NCBI GenBank assembly: GCA_003569165.1
Contig: BGOI01000010.1
Location: 1-60,316 of the forward strand
Origin: Opitutia bacterium
GTDB lineage: Bacteria > Verrucomicrobiota > Verrucomicrobiia > Opitutales > UBA953
Reading direction: 5' to 3'
DNA: 60,316 bases
Part shown: piece after piece, positions 34,807-59,879 of the stretch
Numbering within the stretch: the first letter of the stretch is position 1
Layout of the letters: each line of letters begins with the position of its first letter
Position numbers and translations under genes: made by a program
The notes under the pieces: generated by a model
Database searches by the model: none
The model's input: the letters and a program-made list of their open reading frames with translations, nothing else
What the model was told of the DNA's origin: nothing

Positions 34807-34936
34807 GGTAGGGTCGGGACCGCGTCACGACAGTGCCATCTCGAGGTAGGGCCGAGCATCCCTGCTCGGCCGCGGCCAACCAAGGATGGTTGGCCCTACC
34901 CAATCCAGGCGGATGCGATGTCATCGCATCCCTACC
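34807..34936. repeat. REP-like cluster: one single unit, one 56-bp inverted pair (REPIN), one reverse unit
   Basis: This is part of the 386-bp gene-free stretch 34650-35035. Unit 1 (34807-34831, plus) is GGTAGGG with an imperfect hairpin GTCGGGAC-CGC-GTCACGAC; identical 25-bp copies lie at 46268-46292 (reverse) and 57219-57243. The REPIN at 34845-34900 starts GGTAGGG and ends CCCTACC, holding hairpins GCCGAGCA-TCCC-TGCTCGGC and GGCCAACCA-AGGA-TGGTTGGCC joined by CGC. A reverse unit at 34911-34936 has stem GGATGCGAT-GTC-ATCGCATCC then CCCTACC. Arms are perfect except for one mismatch in unit 1. Confidence 0.85.
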
Positions 34937-34958
34937 CCCGCCACCTGAAACTTGCATC

Positions 34959-35007
34959 CACTTTTGCACCTTTGCACAGGCCGCAGGCCGGTTTGCACTT
35001 TTGCACC
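34959..35007. repeat. TGCAAA-type repeat (reverse orientation)
   Basis: CACTTTTGCACCTTTGCAC (34959-34977) and TTTGCACTTTTGCACC (34992-35007) flank a short GGCC-GCA-GGCC hairpin. They are the reverse complement of the array found upstream of the two propeller genes at 57071-57115 and 58371-58415. Confidence 0.65.
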
Positions 35008-35009
35008 TA

Positions 35010-35035
35010 GGACAGCACGTGGTGCTGTCCCTACC
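35010..35035. repeat. REP-like unit directly after the PfkB stop codon
   Basis: Reverse unit: stem GGACAGCAC-GTG-GTGCTGTCC then CTACC, abutting the stop codon of the kinase gene (35036). Read on the minus strand it is identical over 26 bp to the unit at 46133-46158. Its position right after a stop suggests use as a transcript end or 3'-stabilising hairpin, although no T-tract follows. Confidence 0.85.
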
Positions 35036-36046
35036 TCAAAACTCCCCGAAGCCGAACTGCTCGGCCAAGGCGAGACAGTCTTTCACCGGGCGCAGGCCTT
35101 TGGAGGGCGTGGGATCGGCGAGGCAGGCGGCGGCGCAGCAGACGGCGAGCTTGAGGCGTTCCTGGACTTCGAGGCCTTCGTGCAGGCCGTAAAGCATGCC
35201 GGCGGCGAACGCATCGCCTGCGCCAGTCGCACCCTTGCTGTAACCAGCGGGAAGTTTGAGCGAGGCTTGCTTGAGGCGAAGGCCTTCGGCGGTCGCGCAG
35301 ACCGAACCGAACTCGGTGTGGATCGTGACCGTCTTCTTCACGCCGAGGGAGAGCAGCTGCTCGGCGGTGCGGATCAGCCAGCCGGCGTTCTTGGGGTCGA
35401 TGACTTCGCCGACGACGAGCCCGGCCTCGATCTCGTTGATGACGAGGTGGTCGGTGAGGGGCAGGGCGCTGAGGGCGATCTCGCGGAACTGCGGGTGCGA
35501 GGCGCTGACCATGTCGACCGAGGTCTCGAGGCCGGCGGAGCGGGCGTTGAAGAGCAGCTTGGCCGCGATGGTCTGGCCGCCTTCGAAGGTGTCCATGCGG
35601 TCGAGCAGCATGAGGTAGCCGAGGTGCAGGATGCGGGCGTTGGTCTTGCTGAAGGAGCAGTGCTTGAGGTCGAAGTGTGCATTAGCGCCACGGCAATGGA
35701 AGAAGGTGCGGCGTCCAGTGGACTGCACGGTCATCGCGTCGGTGTAGGAGGTCGGGTGGTCCTTGCTGAGGTGCAGCATGCCCACGTCGATTCGGTGGTT
35801 CTGGCAGTCACGCTTGATCCACTGGCCGTTGGTGTCGTCGCCGACGAGCCCGCAGGCGGAGAGAGGGAATTCGACCTTCATCGCCGCGAGGTCCTTGAGG
35901 ACGTTGTAAGGGCCGCCGCCGTTGGAGCGCGATTCGCTCAGGATGCTCGCAAGCATGTCCTGGACGGGGTAGCCATCGATAATCTTGACGTAATCGACGA
36001 TGAAATTGCCGGCGGCAAGAATGCCTTGGCGAGGAGTTTTTGGCAT
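35036..36046 (-). CDS. PfkB-family carbohydrate kinase
   Basis: 336 aa from the ATG at 36046 (MPKTPRQGILAAGNFIVDYV). Ribokinase-family signatures: substrate-binding SESRSNGGGPYNVLKDLAAM and the ATP/anion-hole motif KGATGAGDAFAAGMLYGLHE, whose Asp is the catalytic base. A central FFHCRGANAHFDLKHC stretch is characteristic but I cannot link it to a known substrate. It phosphorylates a sugar or ketose using ATP in the cytoplasm. Last gene of the 41798-35036 operon, seven bases after the Gfo/Idh stop and followed at once by a REP hairpin. With an isomerase and an aldolase in the operon, a ketose-1-phosphate product is plausible (inference). Confidence 0.9.
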   Translation of the reverse strand: MPKTPRQGILAAGNFIVDYVKIIDGYPVQDMLASILSESRSNGGGPYNVLKDLAAMKVEFPLSACGLVGDDTNGQWIKRDCQNHRIDVGMLHLSKDHPTSYTDAMTVQSTGRRTFFHCRGANAHFDLKHCSFSKTNARILHLGYLMLLDRMDTFEGGQTIAAKLLFNARSAGLETSVDMVSASHPQFREIALSALPLTDHLVINEIEAGLVVGEVIDPKNAGWLIRTAEQLLSLGVKKTVTIHTEFGSVCATAEGLRLKQASLKLPAGYSKGATGAGDAFAAGMLYGLHEGLEVQERLKLAVCCAAACLADPTPSKGLRPVKDCLALAEQFGFGEF

Positions 36047-36053
36047 GAGAAAT

Positions 36054-37175
36054 TTAGAGCGAGACGACCGTGCCTTGGGCCTGCGACTGCAGGGCGGCGG
36101 CGAAGATCTCGTGGGTGGCGACGGCTTCGTCGGGCGTAGCGCAACCGAAACGGCCGTTGAGCAGGCCGGCGCGTTCCATGAGGTAGGCGGCCCACATCTG
36201 CTGGATGACGTCGGTGAAACCGGGTTCAAAGATGCCGCCGGTGACGGTCTTGAACGGCGTGCTGAAGCCGAGGTCGGTGCGCTTCCAGAACTGTTCCTTG
36301 CCGCGTTCGAAGAGCCAGAGGGCCTTGGTGTCCGAGGTGCTGTAGCGGACGCCGCCATCGGTACCGAGAATTTCGATAAACCAGGTATTGGTCGCACCAG
36401 GCATGAGGCGCTTCATCTCGAGGCGCATGGGGACTTCGTGCTCACCGACTTTGATCCAAGTGTTGAGGAGTGCGTTATCCCAGGTGTCGCAGTTCGTCAC
36501 GCCGCCCTTGCCGTCGGGGCGCTGCGGGTAGCCCTTCTGGAGTTGGGCGAAGACGCGGGAGGGCTTCCAGCCAAGGCGCAGAGGGATATGGCACGCATGC
36601 ATGCCGAGGTCGTTGAGGGCGCCACCTTCGCCGCACATGGCGTTGAGGCGCTTCCAGTTTGCGGCCTTGGTCGGGTCGAGGTCGCTGCTGTGGTGGAAGC
36701 CAGAGACGACTTCCAGGATGCGGCCGATCGAACCACTTCGAGCCACTTCGAAGGCGCGCTGGGCGCCAGGGAAGAAGGGCATCTCAGAGCTGCAGCGCAC
36801 GAAGCGACCGCTGGCCTTGGCGGCGGCGTGGATGCGACGGGCGGAAGCGAGGTCGATGCCGAAGGGCTTCTCGGCGAAGAGGTCTTTGCCGGCAGCGAGG
36901 ACGTCGCAATACAGCTTCTCGTGCAGGTTATGTGGCACGGCCACGTAGACCACGTCGACGTCGGGGTTCGCGAGGAGCGCCTTGTAGTCGGTGGTCTTCT
37001 GCGTGCAGGAGGGGATGCAATCGAACCACGAGAGTGTGGCGGGATTGAGGTCGGCCACGGCCGTAAGGACCGGGCGGACGGAGACGTCGGTAAGCGCGCA
37101 CCAGCGGGCGAATGCGCTGGCCATTTCTCGACCCATGAGGCCGCCGCCGATGATGCCGATGTTTACGGGAGACAT
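36054..37175 (-). CDS. Gfo/Idh/MocA family oxidoreductase
   Basis: 373 aa. The Rossmann motif is NIGIIGGGLMGREMASAFAR (residues 5-24); the catalytic lysine motif is LFAEKPFGIDLASARRIHAA; and a conserved GGALNDLGMHACHIPLRLGW block has the aspartate/histidine of the active site. Intact and of normal length. It oxidises a sugar or polyol hydroxyl with NAD(P). It sits between the GlcF-like gene (48-bp gap) and the PfkB gene (7 bp). It is not closely similar by eye to the other Gfo/Idh protein at 33609-34649, so the two likely serve different pathways. Confidence 0.93.
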   Translation of the reverse strand: MSPVNIGIIGGGLMGREMASAFARWCALTDVSVRPVLTAVADLNPATLSWFDCIPSCTQKTTDYKALLANPDVDVVYVAVPHNLHEKLYCDVLAAGKDLFAEKPFGIDLASARRIHAAAKASGRFVRCSSEMPFFPGAQRAFEVARSGSIGRILEVVSGFHHSSDLDPTKAANWKRLNAMCGEGGALNDLGMHACHIPLRLGWKPSRVFAQLQKGYPQRPDGKGGVTNCDTWDNALLNTWIKVGEHEVPMRLEMKRLMPGATNTWFIEILGTDGGVRYSTSDTKALWLFERGKEQFWKRTDLGFSTPFKTVTGGIFEPGFTDVIQQMWAAYLMERAGLLNGRFGCATPDEAVATHEIFAAALQSQAQGTVVSL

Positions 37176-37182
37176 GAGGGGA

Positions 37183-37210
37183 AGTTGATGAGTTGAATCG
37201 TTGAATGGTT
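37183..37210. repeat. GTTGAATG-type tandem repeat in the glcF/oxidoreductase gap
   Basis: Three to four imperfect copies of an 8-9 bp word (GTTGATGA, GTTGAATC, GTTGAATG) upstream of the Gfo/Idh start. A related array (GTTGACCA) at 6443-6465 falls in the annotated 5' end of a sulfatase gene. Confidence 0.55.
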
Positions 37211-37223
37211 GGCCAGAGGGATT

Positions 37224-38513
37224 TCAGCGCTCTGCGCGGTAAGCTCGGGCCAGTAATGTCACGGGTTGGAGGAGGGAGATGGGTGAGCCGGCTTGGCGGA
37301 GGCCACGGGCGATCTGAAGGTGGCACCCGGGGTTGGCGGTGGCGAGGACCGATGCGCCGGTGCCGATGACGTGCCCGACCTTGCGGACGAGGAGCTGTTC
37401 GGACTGCTCGGGCTGGGTGATGTTGTAGATGCCGGCGCTGCCGCAGCACCAGTTGGCCTCAGGAAGTTCGACGAGCTTGAGCCCGGGGATGAGCTTCAGG
37501 AGGTCGCGGGGCTGCTTGGTGACCTTCTGGCCGTGGGTCAGGTGACAGGAATCGTGGTAGGTGACGGTGAGGTCGCCCAAGCCCGCCTGCGGGGCGCGAC
37601 AACCATGCTCCATCATCCATTCGTGGATGTCGCGGAGCTTGGAATCCCAGAGTTTCGCTAACGGTGCGTAGACGGCGTCATCGGCGAGCAGAGCGCTATA
37701 GTGGCGGAGATGATTCCCGCAGCCGCCGGAGTTCGTGATGATGGCGTCGAACTGCGACGGCGGAAAGAGGTCGATCATCCGCTTGGCTAAGGTCTTGGCC
37801 GCGTTGGCTTCGCCGTTGTGCGCGTGCAGCGAGCCACAGCAGGGCTGGACGGGCGGCGTATGGACCTCGCAGCCGTTGGCCAGGAGGACATCGGCCGTGT
37901 CGCGATTGATGTCCGCGAACACCAAATCCTGGACGCAGCCGGTGAGCAGGGCGACCCGATGGTTTTTCTTGGCCGGGGACTCGACCGGACGGATGAGTTG
38001 CGGCGAGAACTTCGTCGCGATGGTCGGGCACTGGGGCTCGAGGCGACGAAGGTCTTTCGGCAGAAGCTTGGTCAGGCCAATCTTCCGGAAGGCGGTCTGC
38101 AGTCCGAGGCGTTGGTAAAGCCAGAGGAGCCGGCCGACGAAGCGGAGCAGGCGCGGACGCATGAACAGGCCGCGAATCGTCACCGTGCGCCAGAAGCGGC
38201 TGGTAAAGGTCTGGTTGAGGCCGGCGGACTGGACTTCGGCGCGGGCGGTCTCGAGTAGGTTGGAATAATCCACGCCGGCGGGACAGGCGGTCTGGCAGGC
38301 CAGGCAGCCGAGGCAGTAGCTCATCTCGTCGGCGAAGGCCGGCGACAACTTCAGTTCGCCGTCGGCGACGGCGCGCATGAGCGAGATACGCCCGCGGGGG
38401 CTATGACGTTCCTTATTGGTGGCGACGTAAGTCGGGCAAGCCGGGAGGCACATCCCGCAATGCATGCACTGCTGGAGGATCGAGTAATCGAGGAGCTTGA
38501 GCGAAGGCTTCAT
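37224..38513 (-). CDS. glcF: GlcF-like glycolate/lactate oxidase iron-sulfur subunit
   Basis: 429 aa. Two [4Fe-4S] ferredoxin motifs: C16-x2-C19-x2-C22-x3-C26 (QCMHCGMCLPACP) and CLGCLACQTACP near residue 70. Two CCG domains follow (GCEVHTPPVQPCCGSLHAHN; LVELPEANWCCGSAGIYNI). It forms a complex with the FAD subunit encoded three bases upstream and passes electrons from glycolate or lactate oxidation to the respiratory chain. No GlcE subunit gene is present. Substrate (glycolate, D-lactate or another 2-hydroxy acid) cannot be decided from sequence. Confidence 0.92.
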   Translation of the reverse strand: MKPSLKLLDYSILQQCMHCGMCLPACPTYVATNKERHSPRGRISLMRAVADGELKLSPAFADEMSYCLGCLACQTACPAGVDYSNLLETARAEVQSAGLNQTFTSRFWRTVTIRGLFMRPRLLRFVGRLLWLYQRLGLQTAFRKIGLTKLLPKDLRRLEPQCPTIATKFSPQLIRPVESPAKKNHRVALLTGCVQDLVFADINRDTADVLLANGCEVHTPPVQPCCGSLHAHNGEANAAKTLAKRMIDLFPPSQFDAIITNSGGCGNHLRHYSALLADDAVYAPLAKLWDSKLRDIHEWMMEHGCRAPQAGLGDLTVTYHDSCHLTHGQKVTKQPRDLLKLIPGLKLVELPEANWCCGSAGIYNITQPEQSEQLLVRKVGHVIGTGASVLATANPGCHLQIARGLRQAGSPISLLQPVTLLARAYRAER

Positions 38514-38516
38514 CCC

Positions 38517-39902
38517 TCAGTCGAAGATCTTGCCGGGGTTGAGCAGATTCTGCGGATCCCAGGCGCGCTTAATCTCGCGCATGAGGTCGTGGCTATTCTC
38601 GCCGACCTGACGTCGAAGCCAGGCTTTCTTCGCGAGTCCTACGCCGTGTTCGCCGGTGATCGTGCCGCCGAGGGCGAGGGTCTTGGTCACGATATCTTCC
38701 AGGGCTTCGTGGACACGGGCCATCTCCTCGCTGTTACGCTCGTCGGTCAAGAAAGTCGGGTGCAGGTTGCCGTCGCCCATGTGGCCGAACGTGCCGACCA
38801 ACAGCTTATGTTTCTTGGCGACTTCGGCGACGAAGGCGACCATCTCGGCGAGCTTGTCGCGCGGGACGGTGACGTCCTCGAGGATCGTGGTGGGGCGGAC
38901 GCGGGCGAGGGCGGAGAAGGCGGAGCGACGGGCGGAGGCGAGCTGCAGGGCTTCGGCGTCGTCGCGGGCCACGCGGACGTCCCGGGCGCCCCGGGCGCGG
39001 GCCAGGGTCAGCATCTGCTCGGCTTCTTCGGCGACCGCGGCCGGATGCCCGTCGGTCTCCATCAGCAGGAGCGCCTCGCAATCGCGGGGCAGGCCGATCT
39101 TGGCGTAATCCTCGACGCAACCGATGGTCATGCGGTCGAGGAACTCCAAGGTGCAGGGGATGATCTTCGCCGCGATGATGTCGGAGACCGTCTGGGCGGC
39201 GTCTTCCATGCGGTCATAGCTCGCCAGCATCGTGCGGCGGGCGGCGGGGCGGGGGACGACCTTGAGCAGGACTTCGGTGATGATGCCGAGCGTGCCTTCG
39301 GAGCCGATGAAGAGGTCCTTCATCGAATACCCGGCGACATCCTTCACGCAGGCGTTGCCGAAGTGGGCGATGCGACCGTCGGGCAGCACGACCTCGAGGC
39401 CCATCACGTAATCACGGGTGACTCCGTATTTCAGGCCACGTAGGCCGCCGGAATTCTCGGCCACGTTGCCGCCGATGGTGCTGATCTTCATCGAACCCGG
39501 GTCGGGCGGATAGAAGAGACCGTGCTTGTTGGCCGCGGCGTCGATGGCGGCCGTGATCGCGCCGCATTGGGCCCGGACGGTGAGGTTGGCTGCGTCGACC
39601 GAGAGGATCTTATCCAGGCGAGTCAGACACAGGACAATGCAGCCCGCAGAGGGTACGCTGCCGCCGCTGAGTCCGGTGCCGGAGCCGCGGGTGACGATCG
39701 CGAGGCCGCGAGCGGCCGCGAGCTTCACCACCTCGGAGATTTCTTGAGTCGATCCGGGCAGCACGACGACGCCGACTGGGCCCTTGAGGGCGGCCGTGCC
39801 GTCGAAGCCGTAGGGGATGGTGTCTTCCGGCGACGTCAGCACGTTCTCGACGCCGACGATGGCACGTAGGCGGGCGAGGACAGCTGGGTCAGGGGAGGAC
39901 AC
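38517..39902 (-). CDS. glcD: GlcD-like FAD-linked 2-hydroxy-acid oxidase subunit
   Basis: 461 aa from a GTG at 39902, five bases after the aldolase stop. FAD-binding type 4 domain: AIVTRGSGTGLSGGSVPSAG and ISTIGGNVAENSGGLRGLKY. C-terminal cap with VGTFGHMGDGNLHPTFLTD and GGTITGEHGVGLAKKAWLR, the active-site histidines of the family. It oxidises glycolate to glyoxylate, or D-lactate to pyruvate, with GlcF. Its place between an aldolase gene and glcF suggests the oxidised acid derives from the aldehyde released by that aldolase; an aldehyde dehydrogenase is not in the window. Confidence 0.94.
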   Translation of the reverse strand: MSSPDPAVLARLRAIVGVENVLTSPEDTIPYGFDGTAALKGPVGVVVLPGSTQEISEVVKLAAARGLAIVTRGSGTGLSGGSVPSAGCIVLCLTRLDKILSVDAANLTVRAQCGAITAAIDAAANKHGLFYPPDPGSMKISTIGGNVAENSGGLRGLKYGVTRDYVMGLEVVLPDGRIAHFGNACVKDVAGYSMKDLFIGSEGTLGIITEVLLKVVPRPAARRTMLASYDRMEDAAQTVSDIIAAKIIPCTLEFLDRMTIGCVEDYAKIGLPRDCEALLLMETDGHPAAVAEEAEQMLTLARARGARDVRVARDDAEALQLASARRSAFSALARVRPTTILEDVTVPRDKLAEMVAFVAEVAKKHKLLVGTFGHMGDGNLHPTFLTDERNSEEMARVHEALEDIVTKTLALGGTITGEHGVGLAKKAWLRRQVGENSHDLMREIKRAWDPQNLLNPGKIFD

Positions 39903-39907
39903 GGGGC

Positions 39908-40735
39908 TCAGATGAGCTTCAGGGCTTCGTCGACCGACGCGTTGCGGTGCACCATCGCCATGAGCGCCTGCGTGATGCCACGCGGGTTCGGGTGCTGGAT
40001 GACGTTGCGACCGTAGACGATGCCCGAGGCGCCCTGCTTGAGGAGGCCTTCGGTGCGGACGAGAATTTCCTTGTCGCTCACGCGACCGCCGCCACGGACG
40101 AGGACCGGGATGCCGGAAGCCGTCTCAATGACCTTGTGGTATTGCGAGACGTCGTCGGTCGGGTCGGCCTTGATCACGTCGGCGCCGAGTTCGACCGCCT
40201 GGCGGACCAGGTGGAGGATCTTCGTGAGGTCACCGTCGACCATGTAGCCGCCGGCGATGGCGTTGGGCTGGAAGACGAGCGGTTCGACCATCATCGGCAT
40301 GCCGTAGTAATCGGCCTGCGGCTTGAGCTTGATGATGTTCTCGATGCACTGCGCGGTCACGTCGGGCGCGCCGGGGATCTGGAAGAGGTTCACGCAGACG
40401 CACGCGGCGTCGAGGCGGACGGCCTGCAACATCGTCTCCTCGATCATCAGGCTGAACGCCGTGGCCGGGAGTTCCTTGCCGTAGACGTTGGCGGTGTCGG
40501 TGCGCAGGACGAGGGCCGGCTTCTGCTTGCCCGGGATGGACTGCAGGTGGCGGGCCTGACCGACCGTTAGTTGGATGGCGTCGGGACCGGCGTCGACGAG
40601 CGTGGCGACGACTTGGCGCATGTCTTCGATACCCTGCAGGAAGCCGGGCTGGTTGAAGAAGCCGTGGTCGACGGCGACGTCGAAGCAGCGCTTGGACGAG
40701 GCGTTGAAGAGGCGGTTGAGGCGATACTGCTTCAT
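39908..40735 (-). CDS. Class I aldolase of the DhnA/DeoC-LacD superfamily
   Basis: 275 aa. The N-terminus MKQYRLNRLFNASSKRCFDV is followed by AVDHGFFNQPGFLQGIEDM. Barrel strands include PDAIQLTVGQARHLQSIPGK, DAACVCVNLFQIPGAPD, YYGMPMMVEPLVFQPNAIAG, ELGADVIKADPTDDVSQYHK (the Lys of VIKADP is the expected Schiff-base residue) and IPVLVRGGGRVSDKEILVRT with the phosphate-binding glycines. The family includes archaeal-type fructose-bisphosphate aldolase, LsrF and YihT. It most likely cleaves a phosphorylated ketose to a triose phosphate and an aldehyde. Twenty bp after the isomerase gene and five before glcD. Confidence 0.9.
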   Translation of the reverse strand: MKQYRLNRLFNASSKRCFDVAVDHGFFNQPGFLQGIEDMRQVVATLVDAGPDAIQLTVGQARHLQSIPGKQKPALVLRTDTANVYGKELPATAFSLMIEETMLQAVRLDAACVCVNLFQIPGAPDVTAQCIENIIKLKPQADYYGMPMMVEPLVFQPNAIAGGYMVDGDLTKILHLVRQAVELGADVIKADPTDDVSQYHKVIETASGIPVLVRGGGRVSDKEILVRTEGLLKQGASGIVYGRNVIQHPNPRGITQALMAMVHRNASVDEALKLI

Positions 40736-40754
40736 GAGGGAGAGGGGGCGGGAC

Positions 40755-41798
40755 TTACTTCAGTCCCATGATGTGCTTGAGGATGTAGAGCTCGAGCGCT
40801 TCGTAGTCGCGGGCGTCGCGGTACTGCTGGACGAGCTTCTGGTCTACCGTGCGGACCTTCTGGACGAGCGCAAGGAACAGCTCGCGGCTATTCTTGAGGT
40901 GGTCGGTGACCGGGCTGCCGCGCTGGGTGCGGATGGCCTTGACGTCCAGGCCGATGAATTCGCCGCGGTTACCGTAGCCGGATTCCTCGAGGACGCGGAC
41001 CTGGTTGAAGGCCGCGCGGAGGTTGGCGCCGCCGAAGTTCTTGTCCTGGTCGTATTTCAGGCCGTTCTGGTCGTTGAGGTGGACGCTCGCCAGCTTGTCG
41101 TGGGCGAGGGCGAAGGCCATCTCGTCGCTGGCGTCGAGGCCAGCGAGCATGGCGTGGGCGGACTCGATGAGGCCCTTGACGCGCTTATGGTCCTTCGAGG
41201 CGTAGGAGAGGGTGAGGGCGTGGCCGATGGTCGGCACATAGGCCTGGTCGGTCGGTTCATTCGGCTTCGGCTCGATCCAGATTTCGATGTTCTTGTCGTA
41301 GTCGAGCATCGCGTTGACCGTCTCGAGCAGGCGCTGGTAGGCCAGCTTAGCGTCCTTGGCTTCGCGGATGTAGGTGCCTTCGCGGGCGAGCCAGAGCACG
41401 ATGGCCTTGGAGCCGACGGCGTTGGCGATGTCGATGCACTTCTTGGTGCGATCCCAAGCATAGGCGCGGTCGGACGCGCTGTTAGAAGTGTAGGCGCCGT
41501 CGACGGTCTGGTCGGCGAACCACAGGCGCGGGGCGACGAACTCCGGGGTGAGGCCTTGGTTGGCGAGCATCGCCTTCACCTCGGTGGCCTTCTTGAGGAT
41601 TTGGTCAGGCTTGAGGTCGTCCATGCCTGGGACGACGTCGTCGTCATGGAACTGTACGCCCTCGAAGCCGAGGGGCCGGTAGAGGGCGAACTTCTCCTCG
41701 TGGGGGAAGACCTTGCGGACGTCGCCGCCGAAGGGGTCGCCGCCCTCGCTGATGTTCCAAGGGCCGAAAGAGAATCGATACGTGACGGGGGTGCTCAT
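40755..41798 (-). CDS. Xylose isomerase-like sugar isomerase
   Basis: 347 aa TIM-barrel protein. Motifs parallel XylA: YRFSFGPWNISEGGDPFGGD at the start; FEGVQFHDDDVVPG; KAIVLWLAREGTYIREAKDA; IEIWIEPKPNEPTDQAYVPT (metal-ligand Glu); and ASVHLNDQNGLKYDQDKNFG (metal ligands, compare LNGQxxxxYDQD in XylA). It converts an aldose to a ketose using two divalent metals. The length is shorter than class II XylA and closer to the class I/actinobacterial type, and substrate could be xylose, rhamnose or fucose. First gene of the six-gene operon; a TAGAAT box lies 12 bases before the ATG. Confidence 0.88.
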   Translation of the reverse strand: MSTPVTYRFSFGPWNISEGGDPFGGDVRKVFPHEEKFALYRPLGFEGVQFHDDDVVPGMDDLKPDQILKKATEVKAMLANQGLTPEFVAPRLWFADQTVDGAYTSNSASDRAYAWDRTKKCIDIANAVGSKAIVLWLAREGTYIREAKDAKLAYQRLLETVNAMLDYDKNIEIWIEPKPNEPTDQAYVPTIGHALTLSYASKDHKRVKGLIESAHAMLAGLDASDEMAFALAHDKLASVHLNDQNGLKYDQDKNFGGANLRAAFNQVRVLEESGYGNRGEFIGLDVKAIRTQRGSPVTDHLKNSRELFLALVQKVRTVDQKLVQQYRDARDYEALELYILKHIMGLK

Positions 41799-41810
41799 GG
41801 GGAAAGCGCT

Positions 41811-41816
41811 ATTCTA
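41811..41816 (-). promoter_or_regulatory. Candidate -10 box TAGAAT for the isomerase operon
   Basis: On the minus strand TAGAAT ends 12 bases before the isomerase ATG, which would place the transcript start about five bases upstream of the codon. The same hexamer is found six bases before the DUF1501 ATG at 18845. No strong -35 box is evident. Confidence 0.45.
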
Positions 41817-41825
41817 ACAAAAAAT

Positions 41826-41879: not shown

Positions 41880-41925
41880 TTGTGCTGAAACCTTACCTCG
41901 CCTCAGGTGTATTAACAGACCGACC

Positions 41926-43311: not shown

Positions 43312-43330
43312 GGCGGGTGCTGCGTTCGTC

Positions 43331-44343: not shown

Positions 44344-44346
44344 AGT

Positions 44347-44401
44347 GGAGGACTGAATGGAGAGCTGAATAGAGGACTGAATTGATAACAGAGGACTGAA
44401 T
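44347..44401. repeat. 12-bp tandem repeat (GGAGGACTGAAT type)
   Basis: Three adjacent 12-bp units (44347-44358, 44359-44370, 44371-44382) and a fourth after an 8-base spacer (44390-44401), with one to three mismatches each. It lies in the 391-bp gene-free stretch 44344-44734, directly after the AraC gene. Confidence 0.7.
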
Positions 44402-44426
44402 CGATGACAGAGGACGGATGGCAGAG

Positions 44427-44495
44427 TACCTGAACCTGTACCTGTACCTGAGCAGCCGAACCTGAGACCCGACGGCCGAGACCTGGGACCTGAAA
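44427..44495. repeat. ACCTG-type repeat block, copy 1
   Basis: A run of ACCTGT/ACCTGA words that ends with GACCTGGGACCTGAAA (44480-44495). The last 16 bases recur exactly at 57413-57428, and the roughly 60 bases before them align with 57361-57412 with small indels. It marks a second dispersed intergenic family besides the REP units. Confidence 0.7.
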
Positions 44496-44523
44496 GAAAT
44501 GCCCCCGGCCAACTATCCGTTCT

Positions 44524-44539
44524 CCGGTTTACCTTTGAG
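44524..44539. repeat. CCGGTYTMCCTTTGAG box, copy 1
   Basis: CCGGTTTACCTTTGAG, 18 bases before a REPIN. Copies matching 14 of 16 bases occur at 58704-58719 and 59901-59916, each 21-26 bases after a REPIN. Confidence 0.6.
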
Positions 44540-44557
44540 CTAATAGCCGTTGTCTCG

Positions 44558-44613
44558 GGTAGGGTTGAGCGCCCTCGCTCAACCGCGGCTGACCAAGGGT
44601 GGTCAGCCCTACC
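44558..44613. repeat. REPIN-like 56-bp inverted pair, covarying with 34845-34900
   Basis: GGTAGGG at 44558 and CCCTACC ending at 44613 enclose hairpins GTTGAGCG-CCCT-CGCTCAAC and GGCTGACCA-AGGG-TGGTCAGCC, separated by CGC. Length and layout equal those of 34845-34900. Five stem pairs differ and both bases change in each; the other differences are in the loops. Confidence 0.88.
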
Positions 44614-44734
44614 ATGGTTACCTCCGCCAGCGCTGGAAGGGGCGATAAGGGATAGTCCTCAGACGGAAGCTGGGGCAGGGACGCTTATTAATATCGGAAA
44701 GCTCCTTCCGGTAACCATGATTTACCCCAACCCC

Positions 44735-46132: not shown

Positions 46133-46292
46133 GGTAGGGACAGCACCACGTGCTGTCCTCGTTCGCCGTAGGGCGAACTATCTTAGGGGCGTGGCTACGC
46201 TGCGCCCGGTCACGACGTAGTCGTGACCCTACCTTAGGCCGCCCTGCGGCGGCCATCACGCACCTATGTCGTGACGCGGTCCCGACCCTACC
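46133..46292. repeat. Dense REP-like cluster (three clear and up to three degenerate units)
   Basis: Part of the 360-bp gene-free stretch 46130-46489. Clear units: 46133-46158 (plus; stem GGACAGCAC-CAC-GTGCTGTCC), 46208-46233 (reverse; GGTCACGAC-GTA-GTCGTGACC then CCCTACC), and 46268-46292 (reverse; the same 25-bp unit as 34807 and 57219). Degenerate hairpins between them: GTTCGCC-GTAG-GGCGAAC (46161-46178), GGGCGTGGC-TAC-GCTGCGCCC (about 46187-46207, with wobble pairs) and GGCCGCC-CTGC-GGCGGCC (46237-46254). Nothing else is recognised in 46293-46489 except an AT-rich patch (46408-46420) that may belong to a promoter for the next gene. Confidence 0.85.
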
Positions 46293-52337: not shown

Positions 52338-52384
52338 GCCTTCAGTGAACCCACGCCGAGGGGGCTTTCCACCCCAATCCGCCG

Positions 52385-53839: not shown

Positions 53840-54888
53840 CAGATTCGTTCGAGCTTGAGCGGGTAGGTCTTGCCGGAGGCGAACTGCGCCACGATCAGCG
53901 ACCCGTCGGGGTTCGCGAGCACGTCGTGGGGATGCAGGAACACGTCGGCGGTGTGCTTCATCGGAAGGAGCTTGCCGGCGGCATCGTAGACGGGCGCCGA
54001 GCCGGCGATGTTCGACACCACGCGGAGGTTCGCATCGAGGATGGAGAGGAAGCCGCGGCTATTGCGGTCCTTGGGCCAGTTGTCGGCCAAGTGGGCCACG
54101 ACGTAGTGCTGGCCGAAGCGGCGGATCTGCCGAGGGTTGCCGCCGGGGAGGTCGGTCTGGGCGAGCTTCTTGCCGTCGAGATCGAGGCGCAGGAGGTATT
54201 GCTGGTCGCTCATTGCGATGAGCATGGTCTCGGCGCTGTCGGCCTCGGGCCGGGGGTCGGTGTCGATCATGCCGCCGTGCGGTCCCCAGTGGACGATCCC
54301 GCCTTCCGGTCCGCCGAGGAGGCGCTTGAACGAGCCGTCGGCCGCGTAGTGCAGGATGTAGTCCTTTCCATAGCCATCGAGGACGTAGAACTCGCCGTCG
54401 GCCCGGTGAAGCGTCCAGGAGGGGCGGTAGTCGGATTCCTTGGCATATTTGCTGGTGTTGGCCGGCAGTCGCCATTCGCCCAGTTGTTCGCCGGAGAGCG
54501 CGAACCGGGTCACGGTGTGCAGGTTAAGGTCGGTGACAAAGAGCGCGGCTTTGTTGCGATAGGGCGCGAGCGAGAGCCCGTGCGCGCCAGGGAACTTCGG
54601 CCCGGTCCATTTGTGCGCCAGCTTCCCGGCGTCGTCGTAGAAGATGACGTTGTTCGCGACGTGGTTGGTGAGGAGCACGATCTGTCCGTCGGCCGTGCGG
54701 GCGAGTCCGTGGCAATCGTTGACCGGCGTCTTTTCGTCGAGCACGCCCCAGCCCGGAACCACGCGATACTTGAAGTCGCCTTGGCCAAGGACCTCGGGCG
54801 ACGAAGCCTGCGCGAAGGAGCGGCCGACGGCTCCATACCAAGCTCCGGCGAGGAGGGCGTGCTTGAGGAAGGTTCGTCGACGCATCAT
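53839..54888 (-). CDS. Secreted six-bladed beta-propeller protein (NHL-like), Tat leader
   Basis: 349 aa. The leader MMRRRTFLKHALLAGAWYGA has a twin-arginine pattern. Repeated propeller strands include DCHGLARTADGQIVLLTNHV, GAHGLSLAPYRNKAALFVTD, WTLHRADGEFYVLDGYGKDY, WGPHGGMIDTDPRPEADSAE and FLHPHDVLANPDGSLIVAQF; the HG/HD positions at the start of each blade are typical of NHL and peptidylglycine-lyase-like propellers. No catalytic assignment can be made; sugar binding or lactone/lyase chemistry are options. The start overlaps the upstream barrel gene (ATGA) and the stop overlaps the sulfatase start. Confidence 0.85.
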   Translation of the reverse strand: MMRRRTFLKHALLAGAWYGAVGRSFAQASSPEVLGQGDFKYRVVPGWGVLDEKTPVNDCHGLARTADGQIVLLTNHVANNVIFYDDAGKLAHKWTGPKFPGAHGLSLAPYRNKAALFVTDLNLHTVTRFALSGEQLGEWRLPANTSKYAKESDYRPSWTLHRADGEFYVLDGYGKDYILHYAADGSFKRLLGGPEGGIVHWGPHGGMIDTDPRPEADSAETMLIAMSDQQYLLRLDLDGKKLAQTDLPGGNPRQIRRFGQHYVVAHLADNWPKDRNSRGFLSILDANLRVVSNIAGSAPVYDAAGKLLPMKHTADVFLHPHDVLANPDGSLIVAQFASGKTYPLKLERI

Positions 54889-55985
54889 GACCGGGTCGAA
54901 CGATAAGCATTTCCGATGGCTTCGACCTTAGGCCATTCTTTCGCGATACCGCTCCAAGCGAACGTCATGACGCCCGTGGCAGGCGCTTTCAGGCCGTGGC
55001 GGATGACCTCCGCGATCTCGTTCACCGGCACCCGCTCGCCCCAGTCTGAGGATTGTACGATGGGCCAGATCAACTTCTTTTCGCCGGGTTCGCCGCGGAG
55101 GCCCAGGAGTTCGCCGAGCTGGGCGGTCTGGCGCGAAATCCAGGCCGGATCGCCGGCGTGGCCGAACCGGGCATGATACGGCATGATGCTGAAGACATCG
55201 AGGTGAGGCGCCTGCGCACGCAGGTCGATGGCGAGCTTATGGCGGATTGCGCCCTCGCGTTCGCCCTCGCCCCAGGGGCAATGGAAGGTCCCGAGCAGCG
55301 ACTTGGGCCGGACTTCTTTTTGAATCGCGCGGTATTCCCGGATCCAATCGGTGAAGACGCCGCATCGGTATTCCGTCCAGCGGTCGCGATGAATTCCAAG
55401 CAAGCGCGCCGCGGCGGCCGGGATGTCGGCCGGCAGGGGGATGCCGGTCGTATCGGTGAATCCCCGCAAGGCCGCCGGACAGAAGTCGGTGTCGGGTAGT
55501 TCGGGTTCAGCTTGCTCCCAGGCGGCATGGGAGTGGTGGTAATCGAGCCAGATGCCGTCGATTTCGAAGGTCTCCAGGACCCGCCGAAACTCCTGCATCC
55601 GGTCGCGCCGGTAGCCCGCGTGGTGGGCGCTCACGCCTTGCCACCCCGAGGGGGCGGGACAGGGACGTCCGTCGGTACCGACCGGGGCCGCGTCCGGATG
55701 ATCCCGGAGGAACGCCGCCTGGTGCATCGAGTTGAATTCCGCGTAGACCTTGAGTCCGAGCTCGCGGTGCCGCGCGATTTCATCCGTCCGGAGAGCACCA
55801 GACCCGACCCAGACGGCGTCGATGCCATAGTCGGCCGGTTTTTCGCCGCGCTCAAGGATCTGCCGGAGAAAGCCGCCGTAGATCCCGGTCGTCATCGGTC
55901 GCCGCCGTGTCGGGGCGACGCAGCCCGAGAAGAAACCGGCCGCGGCGAGACCTGAGGCGGACAGGAAGGCGCGACGGGTGGTCAT
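54885..55985 (-). CDS. Tat-exported barrel protein, putative glycosidase
   Basis: 366 aa. The leader MTTRRAFLSASGLAAAGFFS runs into GC (lipobox FFSGC, Cys22), so it is Tat-exported and probably lipid-anchored. The rest reads as a TIM barrel: YGIDAVWVGSGALRTDEIAR, ELGLKVYAEFNSMHQAAFLR, TFEIDGIWLDYHHSHAAWEQ (an Asp at a strand end, a candidate nucleophile or acid), KSLLGTFHCPWGEGEREGAI, HLDVFSIMPYHARFGHAGDP and KLIWPIVQSSDWGERVP. The pattern is like the hydrolase-like GHL families, with no sure substrate. It lies three bases after the NHL gene and overlaps the propeller gene downstream. Confidence 0.82.
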   Translation of the reverse strand: MTTRRAFLSASGLAAAGFFSGCVAPTRRRPMTTGIYGGFLRQILERGEKPADYGIDAVWVGSGALRTDEIARHRELGLKVYAEFNSMHQAAFLRDHPDAAPVGTDGRPCPAPSGWQGVSAHHAGYRRDRMQEFRRVLETFEIDGIWLDYHHSHAAWEQAEPELPDTDFCPAALRGFTDTTGIPLPADIPAAAARLLGIHRDRWTEYRCGVFTDWIREYRAIQKEVRPKSLLGTFHCPWGEGEREGAIRHKLAIDLRAQAPHLDVFSIMPYHARFGHAGDPAWISRQTAQLGELLGLRGEPGEKKLIWPIVQSSDWGERVPVNEIAEVIRHGLKAPATGVMTFAWSGIAKEWPKVEAIGNAYRSTRS

Positions 55986-55988
55986 CGT

Positions 55989-57056
55989 TCAGGGACGTAG
56001 GACGCGGACGCGGTGATTCTCGGAGTCGCCGACGAAGACGCTGCCGTCCTGGTCGACCCAGATGCCATGCGGACGGGCGAGCCCGCACTTCAGCGGATCG
56101 CCGTCGGGGCCGTCATGCTTGGCGCCGGTGCCGATCATCAGCTCGAGGTTGCCGGTCTTGGCGTCGACCATGCGGATCGAATGGGATTCGGTGTCGACCA
56201 GCCAGGCGTTGCCCTGGGCGTCGACGGCGACGCCCTTGGGCCCGCTGAGCGTGGCGAGCTTGGCCGGTCCGCCGTTGCCGGTGAAGCCCTTCTTGCCGCT
56301 GCCGGCGACATGGGTGATCTTGTCGGCCTTGAGGTCGAGCTTGAAGACCTGGTTGCCTTCGCGGGTGCAGACCCAGAGGTTGCCGGCGGCGTCGAAGTCG
56401 ATGGAGCGAGGGCCCTTGAGCGGAGTGCCCTTAACCGGAGCGCCGTCAGGGGTTTCGCCCGCCTTGCCGGTGCCGGCGATGGTGCTGATGCGCTTGGTCT
56501 TCATGTCGACCTTGCGGATGACGTTGTTGCCGATGTCGCAGATGAAGAGGTCGCCGTTCGCGTCGAACTGGATGCTGTGCGGCTGCTTCAGCTGGGCCTG
56601 GTCGGCGGGGCCGCCGTCGCCGGAGTAGCCGGGCTTGCCGGTGCCGACGACCGTCGTGATGATGCCGGTCTTCGCGTCGATCTTGCGGACCGCGTGGTTC
56701 TGCATGTCGACGACGAAGAGGTTGCCGCGCTTCGGGCCGAAGCGGAGCTCGTGGGGGAGGTTGAAGGTAGCCACCGTGGCGGGGCCGCCATCGCCGGTGT
56801 AGCCGGCCTTGCCCGTGCCGGCGATCAGCGTGATCTTGCCGTCCTGACCGACGCGGCGGATGCGCTGGCCCGTGTATTCGCAATACCAGATGGCGCCGTC
56901 GGGGCCGCGGACCACGCCGAAGGGATTATCCATCCTGGCGGCCATGGCGGGACCGCCGTCGCCGGAGTAGCCCTTCTCACCGGTGCCGGCGAAGGTCGAG
57001 ACGGACGCGGCGGAAAGCGAAGCCGCGGCCAGGAGGGGGAGGAGGCGGAGGAGCAT
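55989..57056 (-). CDS. Secreted NHL-repeat protein
   Basis: 355 aa from the ATG at 57056 (MLLRLLPLLAAASLSAASV, signal peptide). The frame stays open upstream into the TGCAAA repeat but those residues are repeat-derived. NHL repeats are very regular: GTGEKGYSGDGGPA, GTGKAGYTGDGGPA, GTGKPGYSGDGGPA, GSGKKGFTGNGGPA, each followed by a strand such as PFGVVRGPDGAIWYCEYTGQ, LPHELRFGPKRGNLFVVDMQ, QPHSIQFDANGDLFICDIGN, GPKGVAVDAQGNAWLVDTES and RPHGIWVDQDGSVFVGDSEN. It forms a six-bladed propeller, most likely for binding. First gene of the 57056-48415 unit. Confidence 0.9.
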   Translation of the reverse strand: MLLRLLPLLAAASLSAASVSTFAGTGEKGYSGDGGPAMAARMDNPFGVVRGPDGAIWYCEYTGQRIRRVGQDGKITLIAGTGKAGYTGDGGPATVATFNLPHELRFGPKRGNLFVVDMQNHAVRKIDAKTGIITTVVGTGKPGYSGDGGPADQAQLKQPHSIQFDANGDLFICDIGNNVIRKVDMKTKRISTIAGTGKAGETPDGAPVKGTPLKGPRSIDFDAAGNLWVCTREGNQVFKLDLKADKITHVAGSGKKGFTGNGGPAKLATLSGPKGVAVDAQGNAWLVDTESHSIRMVDAKTGNLELMIGTGAKHDGPDGDPLKCGLARPHGIWVDQDGSVFVGDSENHRVRVLRP

Positions 57057-57070
57057 TGGGTTTAGGGAGA

Positions 57071-57115
57071 GGGGTAGGGGTTGAATAGGTGCAAAGGTGC
57101 AAAAGTGCAAAGGTG
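57071..57115. repeat. 45-bp leader repeat, copy 1 (upstream of NHL gene)
   Basis: GGGGTAGGGGTTGAATAGGT followed by GTGCAAA-type words. It matches 58371-58415 at 44 of 45 positions. Both copies end 15-28 bases from the ATG of a beta-propeller gene on the minus strand. Confidence 0.85.
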
Positions 57116-57218
57116 AACGCGTGCGGAGCACGCGAGGGGACACGGGGGCATGGTGACAAGTGGACGCGGGGAGAGACAGGGCACATGGGGAGGCCGAAAT
57201 CCCCTCGGATGCGCATAG

Positions 57219-57243
57219 GGTAGGGTCGGGACCGCGTCACGAC
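57219..57243. repeat. REP-like single unit
   Basis: Plus-oriented 25-bp unit identical to 34807-34831 and, reversed, 46268-46292: GGTAGGG then GTCGGGAC-CGC-GTCACGAC. It lies in the 394-bp gene-free stretch 57057-57450. Confidence 0.85.
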
Positions 57244-57292
57244 ATAGCCGTATCGGCGCGCTTCAGGTGGCTGGTGGCGGTAAATATTTTCG

Positions 57293-57428
57293 GGTCTCGG
57301 GTCTCGGCCGTCTGGTCCCGGGTTCAGGTCTTCAGGTGCAGGTTCAGGTTCGGGACCTATGCCTGTACCTGTACCCGAACCCGATAAACCGAACCTGATA
57401 CCCGATGGCCGCGACCTGGGACCTGAAA
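57293..57428. repeat. ACCTG-type repeat block, copy 2, with an inverted half
   Basis: The left half (57293-57352) is made of CAGGT/CGGGT words and the right half (57355-57428) of ACCTG/ACCCG words, so the block is a loose inverted repeat. The right half aligns with 44436-44495 and ends in the same GACCTGGGACCTGAAA. Confidence 0.65.
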
Positions 57429-57450
57429 TATATTTCGGCCCTGTTTCGCC

Positions 57451-58343
57451 TTACTTCCCAAAACCTTCGCCGGGGGTCTTGGACTTGACCAGGTAGGCGC
57501 CGGTGCGGGCGGTGACGAAGAGGGTCGTGCCATCGATGCCGCCGAACTTCATGTTGGACGGGCTTTCGGGGAACGGAATCAGGCCGATCTGGTTGGCGTC
57601 GGCGTCATGCACGGCGAGGCCTTCCTTGGCGGTGGTGTAGAGACGGCCACGCGCGTCGACGGCGAGACCGTCGCTGCCGACCTTGGCGGCGACCTTCGGG
57701 TCGGAGAGGGTGCCGTCCGCGTTGATCTTGGCGGTCTTGCACACCGTGCCGTCGGTCCACCAGATCTGCTTGCCGCCGGAAGTACCGACGACGCCGTTGG
57801 GGGCTTCGACGCCCACGGCCTTGCCGACGTTCGTCACCGACTTACCGTCGGCGGAATGCGGCAGAGCGTGCCGTTGAGGACGTTCTCCGGGATGGCATCT
57901 TTCTTGGCCTTGGAGGGGCGGAGCTTGGGGAGTGTGAAGTAGATATCGCCGTTCGGGGCGAGCCAGAGGTCGTTCGGCGCGTTGAGTTTCTGGCCGTCGC
58001 AGCTCTCGGCCAGGATGGTCTCGGTGCCGTCCTTGTCGCGACGCACGATGGCGCGCTTGTCGATCTCGCAGAAGATCAGGCGTCCCTGCGGATCGACGAC
58101 GATGCCGTTCGAGCGAGACTTGCGGTCGACGAAGAGCTTGCTGCCGCCTTCGGCGGTCCAGCGCTGGATGTTGTTGCTCGGGATGTCTGAGAAATAGAAC
58201 GCCTTCTCCTGCGGGTGCCAGGCGGGACCTTCGGTGAACTTGTAACCCTCGCCGACCTTCTGGGCGGGGCCGTAGGTGAAGACTTCGGCGGCGGAGGCCA
58301 ACGAGGCGGAGAGCAGTCCGGCGATCAGGAGGAGGGAGCGCAT
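57451..58343 (-). CDS. SMP-30/gluconolactonase-type beta-propeller, one frameshift near 57855
   Basis: About 297 aa after joining. Signal peptide MRSLLLIAGLLSASLASA, then family blocks GYKFTEGPAWHPQEKAFYFS (metal-ligand Glu in TEGPAW), RSNGIVVDPQGRLIFCEIDK, KLNAPNDLWLAPNGDIYFTL (metal-ligand Asn). The frame breaks after GTLCRI; adding one A to the A-run at 57855-57856 gives SADGKSVTNVGKAV and continues through VEAPNGVVGTSGGKQIWWTD, GSDGLAVDARGRLYTTAKEG (Asp ligand) and SPSNMKFGGIDGTTLFVTAR to the stop. Family members are metal-dependent lactonases, and an exported sugar lactonase is the best guess. Confidence 0.9.
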
Positions 58344-58370
58344 GGTTGATTAGGGATAGGGGTAGGGGTC

Positions 58371-58415
58371 GGGGTAGGGGTTGAATAGGTGCAAAGGTGC
58401 CAAAGTGCAAAGGTG
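58371..58415. repeat. 45-bp leader repeat, copy 2 (upstream of SMP-30-type gene)
   Basis: Same 45 bp as 57071-57115 with one substitution (58401). It begins 28 bases upstream of the ATG at 58343 within the 425-bp gene-free stretch 58344-58768. Confidence 0.85.
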
Positions 58416-58420
58416 GTTTT

Positions 58421-58453
58421 TAGGGCTAGGGCTGGGGCTGGGGCTAGGGCTGG
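58421..58453. repeat. Hexamer array TAGGGC/TGGGGC
   Basis: Five and a half tandem hexamers. A reverse-complement-like array (CTAGCC/CTAACC/CTGTCC) occupies 58730-58763, so the two arrays flank the REPIN of this gap as an inverted pair about 280 bp apart. Confidence 0.7.
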
Positions 58454-58570
58454 TGATATGTGGAATTATGGAATGGCCGCTCAAGGGGGGCGGAGACCGG
58501 ATGATTAAGGGTTAGTCGTTCTTGGTTCCTTGTTCTTCGTTCGGGCAAAGGACACTCAGAGGTGGCCGGT

Positions 58571-58677
58571 GGTAGGGCGGGCTCTCCGAGCCCGCCGTTG
58601 AACGATGAGAGAATAGGACGTCGACCAAGGTGCGTAGCTCCTTCGGCGAACGGACGGCTCGGAGAGCCGTCCCTACC
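58571..58677. repeat. REPIN-like inverted pair, 107 bp
   Basis: Left unit GGTAGGG with stem GGCGGGCTC-TCC-GAGCCCGCC (58576-58596); right unit with stem GGACGGCTC-GGA-GAGCCGTCC (58652-58672) then CCCTACC (58671-58677). The reverse complement of the right unit matches the left unit closely. The 55-bp centre has no obvious structure. The apical loops TCC and GGA are complementary. Confidence 0.85.
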
Positions 58678-58703
58678 CAATGCCCCAGATGACTTCCCGG
58701 TTT

Positions 58704-58719
58704 CCGGTCTCCCTTTGAG
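58704..58719. repeat. CCGGTYTMCCTTTGAG box, copy 2
   Basis: CCGGTCTCCCTTTGAG, 26 bases after the REPIN; identical to 59901-59916. Confidence 0.6.
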
Positions 58720-58729
58720 CCTTGTGCTT

Positions 58730-58763
58730 CTAGCCCTAACCCAAGCCCTGTCCCTAGCCCTAG
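58730..58763. repeat. Hexamer array CTAGCC type
   Basis: CTAGCC, CTAACC, CAAGCC, CTGTCC, CTAGCC, CTAG: the inverted partner of the array at 58421-58453. It ends five bases before the ThuA stop codon. Confidence 0.65.
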
Positions 58764-58768
58764 ATTGT

Positions 58769-59649
58769 TTACCTCCCCACCGCCCATCGCACCGCATTCT
58801 CCACGACTTTGATATTCTCGGGCTGCTTGAAGATGGGGTAGGTCTCGTGGCCGGGGCGGTAGTAGAAGACTCTGCCTTGTCCGACCTGCCAGGTGATGCC
58901 GCTGCGGAAATATTCTCCTTTGTCCCAGCGTTCCTCGAAGATGACTTCATCCGGCGCCGGATGTGGAAGGGTTCGCCATACATTTTCGGTCTGCGGGATG
59001 TTCCCACTTGGGCCGGCAGGCCGGCGCGATCGGGTGGGCAGGCTTGACGGTGGTCACGTGTCCCGGGCGCCGTCGTTGCGGTAGACCGGGAAGACGCACT
59101 GCGGCAGGGTCAGTGTGTAGGTGTCGCCTGCCGCGCTTCACGGAGGGCGTCAGCGGAGCGCCGGCCTTCACGCCCTTGTAATAGGGGGCTTCGTTGACGA
59201 ACACCCACTTGGCGGCGGCTTGCTCGGCGGGTGTCAGCGGTTTTGAGCGCATCCGCCTTCGCCCGCTCCTGCATGAGTCGCACGAACGGCTTGGCCCAGT
59301 GGGCGGAGTGCAGGCGATGAAGCCGAGCTTACCGGCCTGCACGCGCTTCACGACAGCTTCGACGCGGGCGTCGTCCTGTTCCTTCACCTTGCGATGGCCC
59401 CAGAAGACCAGCACGTCGGCCTGATCGAGGGCGGCGTCCGAGAGCCCTTGATCGGCGGTCCAGCGAGGCGGGCGGTCTTGACGACGAGGTCCTGGTTCTT
59501 GGCGAGCTCAGTCGCCAAGGTCTCGCCGAGGAACTTTTCACCGTAGCCTTGGGATTGCTGTGGCTGCTGCTCATCCCAGACGAGCACGCGGATGGGCTTA
59601 GGCTCGGCCGCGAGGGCGAAGAAGGCAGGAGGGCGAGGAGGAGGCGCAT
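58769..59649 (-). CDS. ThuA-like protein, secreted, multiply frameshifted
   Basis: The ATG at 59649 opens a short leader (MRLLLALL...), then in other frames PIRVLVWDEQQPQQSQGYGE, KFLGETLATELAKNQDLVVK, LDQADVLVFWGHRKVKEQDD, VVKRVQAGKLGFIACT, SAHWAKPFVRLMQERAKAD, VNEAPYYKGVKAGAPLTP, and finally GQGRVFYYRPGHETYPIFKQ and NAVRWAVGR at the stop. This is the ThuA (trehalose-utilisation-like) family with its class I glutamine-amidotransferase-like fold; PVC genomes have many, usually near Gfo/Idh and PSD genes. At least five frame changes are needed, and no single frame covers more than a third of the gene. Confidence 0.82.
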
Positions 59650-59762
59650 GGGGCTTAGTTGAGATGGCATATGACGGAGGGCAGATGGCAGATTAAGGAT
59701 GAGGGACGGATGATGCTTTGAAAGAAAAGATAAATGACGGGGGATGAGTGAGGCGGGCATGA

Positions 59763-59879
59763 GGTAGGGACGTGATTGCCATCACGTCCGTGGGCGGACG
59801 GAAGTCGTTGGTTCGGTGGCCTTGCCCGGCTCGACGCGCGCGCGATGCGAACGGCGGTCATAGCAATGACCGCCCTACC
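59763..59879. repeat. REPIN-like inverted pair, 117 bp
   Basis: Left unit GGTAGGG with stem GGACGTGAT-TGCC-ATCACGTCC (59768-59789); right unit stem GGCGGTCAT-AGCA-ATGACCGCC (59853-59874) then CCCTACC to 59879. All stem pairs are perfect. It fills the centre of the 300-bp gene-free stretch 59650-59949, whose left part holds GGCAGAT/GACGG words and whose right part holds the CCGGTCTCCCTTTGAG box. Confidence 0.85.

Follow-up and report, generated by a model that had tools for sequence, protein, structure and literature searches.

We identified 15 short hairpins, each headed by GGTAGGG, in the intergenic gaps of contig C10 (BGOI01000010.1) of an Opitutia bacterium (Verrucomicrobiota, Opitutales). 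These hairpins are very probably repetitive extragenic palindromic (REP) elements of the GTAG type, many of them paired as REPINs (REP doublets forming hairpins), that is, non-autonomous mobile DNA copied by REP-associated tyrosine transposases (RAYTs), with at least 11 RAYT-REP families residing together in one Opitutales genus and a range of stems that reflects families diverged along with their RAYTs. The window analysed was the whole contig (60,316 bp) of an assembly of 2.03 Mb in 37 contigs (86.6% complete). An earlier reading of the DNA letters (hereafter the sequence-only reading) had listed these units as REP/REPIN-like; our hairpin scan of the window recovered all 15, each between called genes, and this identity is upheld by the excess of the GTAG tag, the hairpins, their intergenic placement and the presence of RAYT genes with GGTAGGG hairpins at their flanks. 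The units are as follows.

34807..34832, plus strand: REP unit of family E, imperfect stem GGTCGGGAC/cgc/GTCACGACA; the identical imperfect hairpin flanks RAYTs at loci L137 and L138
34845..34871, plus strand: family B2, GGCCGAGCA/tccc, left half of a head-to-head REPIN; the stem also flanks a RAYT on C1 of the same genome (L098) and L223
34874..34900, minus strand: family B2, GGCCAACCA/tcct, right half of REPIN 34845-34900 (2-bp spacer); the stem also flanks the own RAYT at L098
34911..34936, minus strand: family F, GGATGCGATG/a; 20 copies in the own genome (at most one mismatch); flanks RAYTs L155 and L120
35010..35035, minus strand: family A, GGACAGCAC/cac; flanks the own RAYT G000:C3:76273-76716
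44558..44584, plus strand: family B1, GGTTGAGCG/ccct, left REPIN half; flanks RAYTs L067, L068 and L209
44587..44613, minus strand: family B1, GGCTGACCA/ccct, right half of REPIN 44558-44613; in the orthologous gap four relatives have the REPIN and four do not
46133..46158, plus strand: family A, identical in sequence to the unit at 35010
46208..46233, minus strand: class E2, GGTCACGAC/tac; the own sample contains two such units, and this stem was not seen at any RAYT
46267..46292, minus strand: family E, imperfect (46268r of the sequence-only reading), by hairpin scan and stem comparison
57219..57244, plus strand: family E, imperfect, by hairpin scan and stem comparison
58571..58596, plus strand: family D, GGCGGGCTC/tcc, left half of a spaced pair; flanks RAYTs L224 and L122
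58652..58677, minus strand: family D, GGACGGCTC/tcc, right half (55-bp spacer); the stem is also near RAYT L122
59763..59789, plus strand: family C1, GGACGTGAT/tgcc, left half of a spaced REPIN; flanks RAYT L152
59853..59879, minus strand: family C1, GGCGGTCAT/tgct, the right half of this spaced REPIN; at RAYTs L152 and L147 the hairpin is GGCGGCCAT/tgcc, which differs in one stem pair

A clean stem of 8-9 bp had been ascribed to every unit. Twelve indeed have perfect stems, of 9-10 bp, starting with GG and ending with CC, whereas the units at 34807, 46268r and 57219 have a common imperfect stem with a G.A mismatch both within the stem and at its foot.

The window has 27 copies of GGTAGGG, compared to 5.0 +/- 2.3 in shuffled sequences. 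Fifteen of these copies head the hairpins listed above and the other 12 are not units; some of the latter lie in G-rich GGGTAGGGG tracts (30928-30979 and 58361-58379), which include GGTAGGG without a hairpin and are not REP units. Such hairpin-less copies could be taken as a sign of chance or of the composition of a GC-rich genome. However, the counts for control tags and reversed patterns already refute this explanation. In a sample made of C1:1-400000 and the window (approximately 12.5% of the DNA non-coding), a perfect stem of 8 bp or more after GTAG was found 43 times, 42 of them intergenic, compared to 0-8 times for each of nine control tags; when one mismatch was allowed and the stem was at least 9 bp, 65 matches (61 intergenic) were found, and 0-28 for the control tags. 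Reversed patterns of three stems (F, A3 and B1) had no match in the 55 genomes of the genus, own genome included, that we compared. Genes were called with our own codon-model script, not a standard annotator, which gave 87-88% coding sequence and replaced a first gene caller that under-called (52-57% coding).

The units consist of GTAG, a stem of 9-10 bp and a loop of mostly 1-4 nt, and GTAG is preceded by G in 67 of 70 units. Except for the imperfect family E, they thus have the size and shape of REPs, a palindrome of 20-40 nt with an unpaired GTAG at one end. The first two stem pairs are invariably G-C and the remaining seven covary; 99.0% of the alignment cells were paired, versus 63.5% after column shuffling and 28-49% when the alignment was slid, although the alignment was fitted to the structure, which favours pairing. 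A covariance-model search, as suggested in the sequence-only reading, proved productive. MAFFT alignment of 12 window units placed the loop gap inside the stem and was abandoned in favour of a model built from six window units with 4-nt loops, which detected 64 units in 463 kb (the 6 training units included). A refined model had 168 matches in the own genome (E <= 1; 150 scored of 1823 first-look candidates). REPs are expected in more than 100 copies and predominantly outside genes, and both properties were observed here, the latter in the 42 of 43 perfect-stem matches placed by our gene calls.

The stems fall into discrete families rather than varying continuously. Among 212 units in 648 kb of the own genome, a sample partly selected for REP-rich regions, 211 differed by no more than two changes from a stem belonging to one of 12 classes (set by eye) and one remained unclassed; we recognise at least 11 REP families with recurring stems. 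Several classes are nearly uniform, with identical units accounting for 25/33 in A, 10/13 in F and 12/16 in E, and others are mixed, such as B2 with 24 forms and C2 and G with 8 each. B2 (73/211) and A (33/211) were the commonest families in this sample; A2 had 9 units and A3 had 6. Stems F, A3 and B1, searched with at most one mismatch, were present in 34, 36 and 31 of the 55 genomes, respectively. Mismatches are also shared, with G.A in 14/16 E units and G.T at pair 3 in at least 13/18 C2 units, and copies with the same mismatch point to copying. Pairs have preferred spacings (29 B2 pairs at 2 or 4 bp, and 9/10 C-type pairs at 63-65 bp with a spacer conserved mainly at its ends), and the B1 doublet recurs in many genomes with 94-100% identity over about 56-75 bp.

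These recurrences bear on the view of the sequence-only reading that the units form one family which keeps its shape but not its stem, implying selection on hairpin shape only, a stem-blind RAYT and compensatory drift of the stem. GGTAG (or nearly so), two G-C pairs at the stem foot and a short loop are common to all units, the seven other pairs covary strongly and mixed pairs of two different stems occur in the B, C and D families, all of which would fit such a process. However, it accounts poorly for discrete stems that recur within and between species, for copies with the same mismatch and for the RAYT genes described below, which are flanked by their own stems and whose distances correlate with stem distances. 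We therefore regard a single shape-selected family as very unlikely.

The RAYT genes lie outside the window, consistent with the earlier statement that it contains none, on C1, C3 (two genes) and C32. A PF01797 (Y1_Tnp) search detected only one RAYT in the own genome, whereas a profile built on 12 short RAYTs, 11 of them from the genus and the other from the order, detected four, and the Pfam count is thus an undercount. Inspection of their flanks for GGTAGGG hairpins, another suggestion of the sequence-only reading, gave a positive result here and in relatives. The four own RAYTs are:

C3:76273-76716: A hairpins at the borders
C3:71714: A2 hairpins at the borders
C32:11545: A3 hairpins at the borders
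C1:465321: B2 hairpins at the borders

All four are open frames, each flanked by its own stem type, and belong to four different families, with no duplicated copy seen in the 86.6% complete assembly; in a self-mobile IS200/IS605 insertion sequence, the transposase gene would itself be multiplied. With the same profile, at least one RAYT was detected in 28 of the 55 genomes, and elsewhere in the genus the RAYT borders carry B1, C1, C2, D, E, F, G and H stems, so that every stem class of the window except that of 46208r (E2) flanks a RAYT somewhere in the genus. Among 82 RAYTs with 250 bp on both sides, a GTAG hairpin was found on at least one side in 75 and on both sides in 68, compared to 7 of 130 control windows; in 52 of the 68, an identical 8-nt arm was present on both sides. 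The best match of the RAYT profile among solved structures was E. coli TnpArep (PDB 4er8, E = 3.5e-17, over 22-144 of 149 profile positions). Invariant residues include MPDHxH, Y123 and NPxR, and the one RAYT tested matched PF01797; we take MPDHxH to be the HUH motif and Y123 the catalytic Tyr. Relatives of the RAYTs in named records, which may lack those of the own genome, put the genus among Opitutae/Opitutales metagenome-assembled genomes (Verrucomicrobiota), and the titles of many of these name a lake. Two CALQLO records titled Akkermansia muciniphila (L146 and L149) carry RAYTs of the genus and match the same-genus genome G070, and their title is probably wrong. Longer Y1 proteins (open frames of 175-325 aa; L059-L063, L065, L070 and L071) also occur in the genus; no GTAG hairpin was found at six of these eight loci, L062 had a single imperfect hairpin of a different type and at L071 a hairpin lay at some distance. 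Model R2 was run across the phylum under stricter filtering (E <= 0.001; for each listed genome, 53 candidates were scored) and matched 7 of 145 genomes, including the own genome and one of the same genus; RAYTs with other GTAG hairpins are spread more widely.

RAYTs and stems have diverged in parallel. The distances between RAYT proteins and between their stems correlated with r = 0.54 for 89 RAYTs and r = 0.72 for 34 genus loci, and none of 2000 permutations was as high. In a tree of 60 RAYTs, those with A, A2, A3, B1, B2, E, F, G and H stems formed supported clades, as did core pairs of C1, C2 and D. The exceptions were L117, L124 and L125, genus RAYTs whose own stems were put in the nearest class and which fall elsewhere, L134 and L141, which have the label of a neighbour class, and the rows from outside the genus, which scatter.

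In the proposed mechanism, the stem would fold while the DNA is single-stranded, and the RAYT (a small Y1 HUH transposase, TnpA-REP) would bind the tag and hairpin, cleave with its tyrosine and transfer the strand. Copies would inherit the stem of their master, mismatches included. Hairpins of a single stem type border the RAYT genes, and the same type is scattered in gaps, mostly downstream of genes. We infer binding, cleavage and transposition by these enzymes, and also the separateness of the RAYT/hairpin pairs. More tentatively, stem pairs 3-9 and the loop may be an address read by each RAYT, although we consider this somewhat doubtful. The genus would then contain about a dozen mutually orthogonal RAYT/hairpin pairs, in which A, A2 and A3 differ from each other by a single compensated stem pair and by changes in the loop, and E has moved to a fixed G.A mismatch within a clade of mostly perfect stems. 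If true, this would amount to a naturally occurring code for single-strand nucleases that depend on the fold and are specific for sequence.

For some families, the number of copies goes with the presence of a RAYT. B2 and A, the commonest families of the own sample, both have a RAYT in the genome; A2 and A3 also have one, yet are not common. For B1, genomes with the cognate RAYT had a median of 16 copies versus 1 (P = 0.0002; 6 RAYT genomes of 55) and for F 21 versus 2 (P = 0.02; only 2 RAYT genomes), and the presence of any RAYT (28 of 55 genomes) goes with more F, A3 and B1 copies together (P = 1e-5), all three uncorrected for relatedness and with the absence of a RAYT from a draft genome being weak evidence. 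The gap at 44344-44716 contains the B1 REPIN in the own genome and four relatives (in L230 its left half has decayed), and the REPIN is absent in four others; the comparison covered 20 loci, own included, of which 9 were usable for this gap, and a second gap was recovered from the own genome alone.

Several observations weigh against RAYT-copied families. Seven of the 11 have no RAYT found in the own, incomplete assembly, the cognate RAYT is no clear predictor of A3 copies (median 5 versus 2, P = 0.12; 4 RAYT genomes), and same-direction close neighbours are as frequent as head-to-head ones in the own sample (58 each, with 7 tail-to-tail). In the RAYT tree, labels scatter beyond the main clades (20 changes for 13 labels, a count made without a shuffled control). 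REP transposase family NF047646 of NCBIfam was the best family for all four RAYTs tested, yet only one passed its cut-off of 80 bits (86.1, 79.8, 71.6 and 69.5 bits). No precise empty site was found among the 9 usable of the 20 loci, the relatives being too diverged, and L238 (69 bp), one of the loci that count as absent, lacks nearly the whole gap. Finally, in published experiments on one S. maltophilia RAYT (PMC8266576), stem sequence influenced cleavage only modestly and cleavage was almost lost when a mismatch lay in the middle of the stem, with which family E fits badly. The G.A mismatch of E is also kept at the RAYT flanks of L137 and L138, beside RAYT clades with mostly perfect stems.

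The placement of units in gaps is strongly biased. Relative to expectation by length, divergent gaps were avoided (1 unit versus 26.3) and convergent gaps favoured (33 versus 7.3), and tandem gaps were neutral (34 versus 34.4); occupied gaps numbered 12/32 convergent, 13/147 tandem and 1/53 divergent. Other REPs are reported to have a similar placement downstream of genes (PMC3733652). This bias might suggest that the units are mainly RNA elements at transcript 3' ends, such as terminators or stabilisers of mRNA ends, with spread being secondary, and such roles are discussed for other REPs in the same paper. However, purging of insertions near promoters would give the same gap bias, many units are in inverted pairs or at RAYT flanks, and in most of the listed units no T run follows the stem. 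The GC-rich hairpin plus T run of an intrinsic terminator was not seen, no dedicated terminator scan having been made; the usual tails after the stem are tag, gcgg, gtggg and gttcg, and one unit (C1:246600) is followed by six T. A search of the window in Rfam gave no match at gathering scores. A primary role as RNA elements is rather improbable.

The sequence-only reading also attributed nearly all gaps above 300 bp to these units, which is too strong, as they occur in 5 of 8 such gaps in the window and 10 of 35 in C1:1-400000. Across C1:1-400000 and the window, occupied gaps cluster in REP islands, falling in 11 20-kb bins compared to 16.1 +/- 1.5 for random gaps of the same class (a fraction of 0.0002 of 5000 trials was as low). 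This clustering bears on the manner of REP spread. In the near-complete relative G063, 14 of 23 matches are on one strand of its C3, within about 26 kb (12-38 kb). In the own genome, 7,500 bases of C1:260001-280000 (L015) are N.

The elements resemble known systems. Di Nocera et al. 2013 (PMC3733652) reported complementary stem changes in GTAG families, along with heterodimers and repeat-specific REPtrons, and found Opitutus terrae, also of Verrucomicrobia, to be highly enriched in GTAG repeats of several families. Such a family, of which the sequence-only reading was not aware, has therefore been described in this phylum, and we claim no gap in the literature. Common features of that superfamily and our units are a terminal GTAG, stems of mostly 6-9 bp there, short loops, head-to-head dimers, location downstream of genes, heterodimers, complementary stem subtypes and repeat-specific REPtrons. 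In O. terrae, however, GTAG-20 is mostly GTGG and intragenic GTAG repeats are more numerous than in any other genome of that study, whereas our units have GGTAG, are nearly all intergenic and belong to another genus, a comparison by description and not by stem sequence. Bertels and Rainey 2011 (PMC3116915) suggested RAYT-REPIN co-evolution; in Pseudomonas fluorescens SBW25 they described inverted REP doublets with preferred spacing, as here, in three groups each beside its own RAYT. In contrast, our genus, whose genomes measure about 1-3 Mb, has about a dozen families; for several of these, the same genome yielded no RAYT, and many units are singlets or same-direction runs. Corneloup et al. 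2021 (PMC8266576) concluded that two enzyme groups have co-evolved with their REPs. Their group 3 TnpA-REP (S. maltophilia and Marinomonas) shares with our RAYTs a short perfect stem after GTAG, cognate pairs and co-evolution, and the S. maltophilia loop has 3 nt; for S. maltophilia they found strong effects of the tag and of one loop base, a weaker effect of stem sequence and a considerable effect of having a perfect stem. Our elements differ, by description, in phylum and in family E, which keeps its G.A mismatch within an otherwise mostly perfect-stem RAYT clade. The REPs of E. coli, whose enzyme is the closest by sequence among solved structures, are longer imperfect palindromes with a bulge (PMC8266576, PMC6006769), unlike our mostly perfect stems.

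Thus, REPs in Verrucomicrobiota, repeat-specific RAYTs and RAYT-REP co-evolution were already in print, and the window provides new and unusually clean members. Their value is that of a natural set of enzyme/hairpin pairs, many in one genus, in which related RAYTs have flanking hairpins a few compensated changes apart, including copies of families without a RAYT left in a given assembly. With such a set, what a RAYT reads (tag, loop, stem or mismatch) becomes directly testable. The number and cleanness of the pairs in one genus, and the mismatch of family E, are the points most worth following.

Other repeats were found next to the units. A 19-bp minisatellite (AGAGGACTGAATCGATAAC, 44371-44415) lies before the B1 REPIN, and the stretch that follows it (to 44540) has similar copies at many places in the genus. 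Short GTGCAAA(A)G repeats recur beside REP units in several gaps (34950-35010, 57087-57115 and 58385-58420). An uncalled frame of 187 aa (58444-59007, minus strand), which had no Pfam match, overlaps the pair at 58571.

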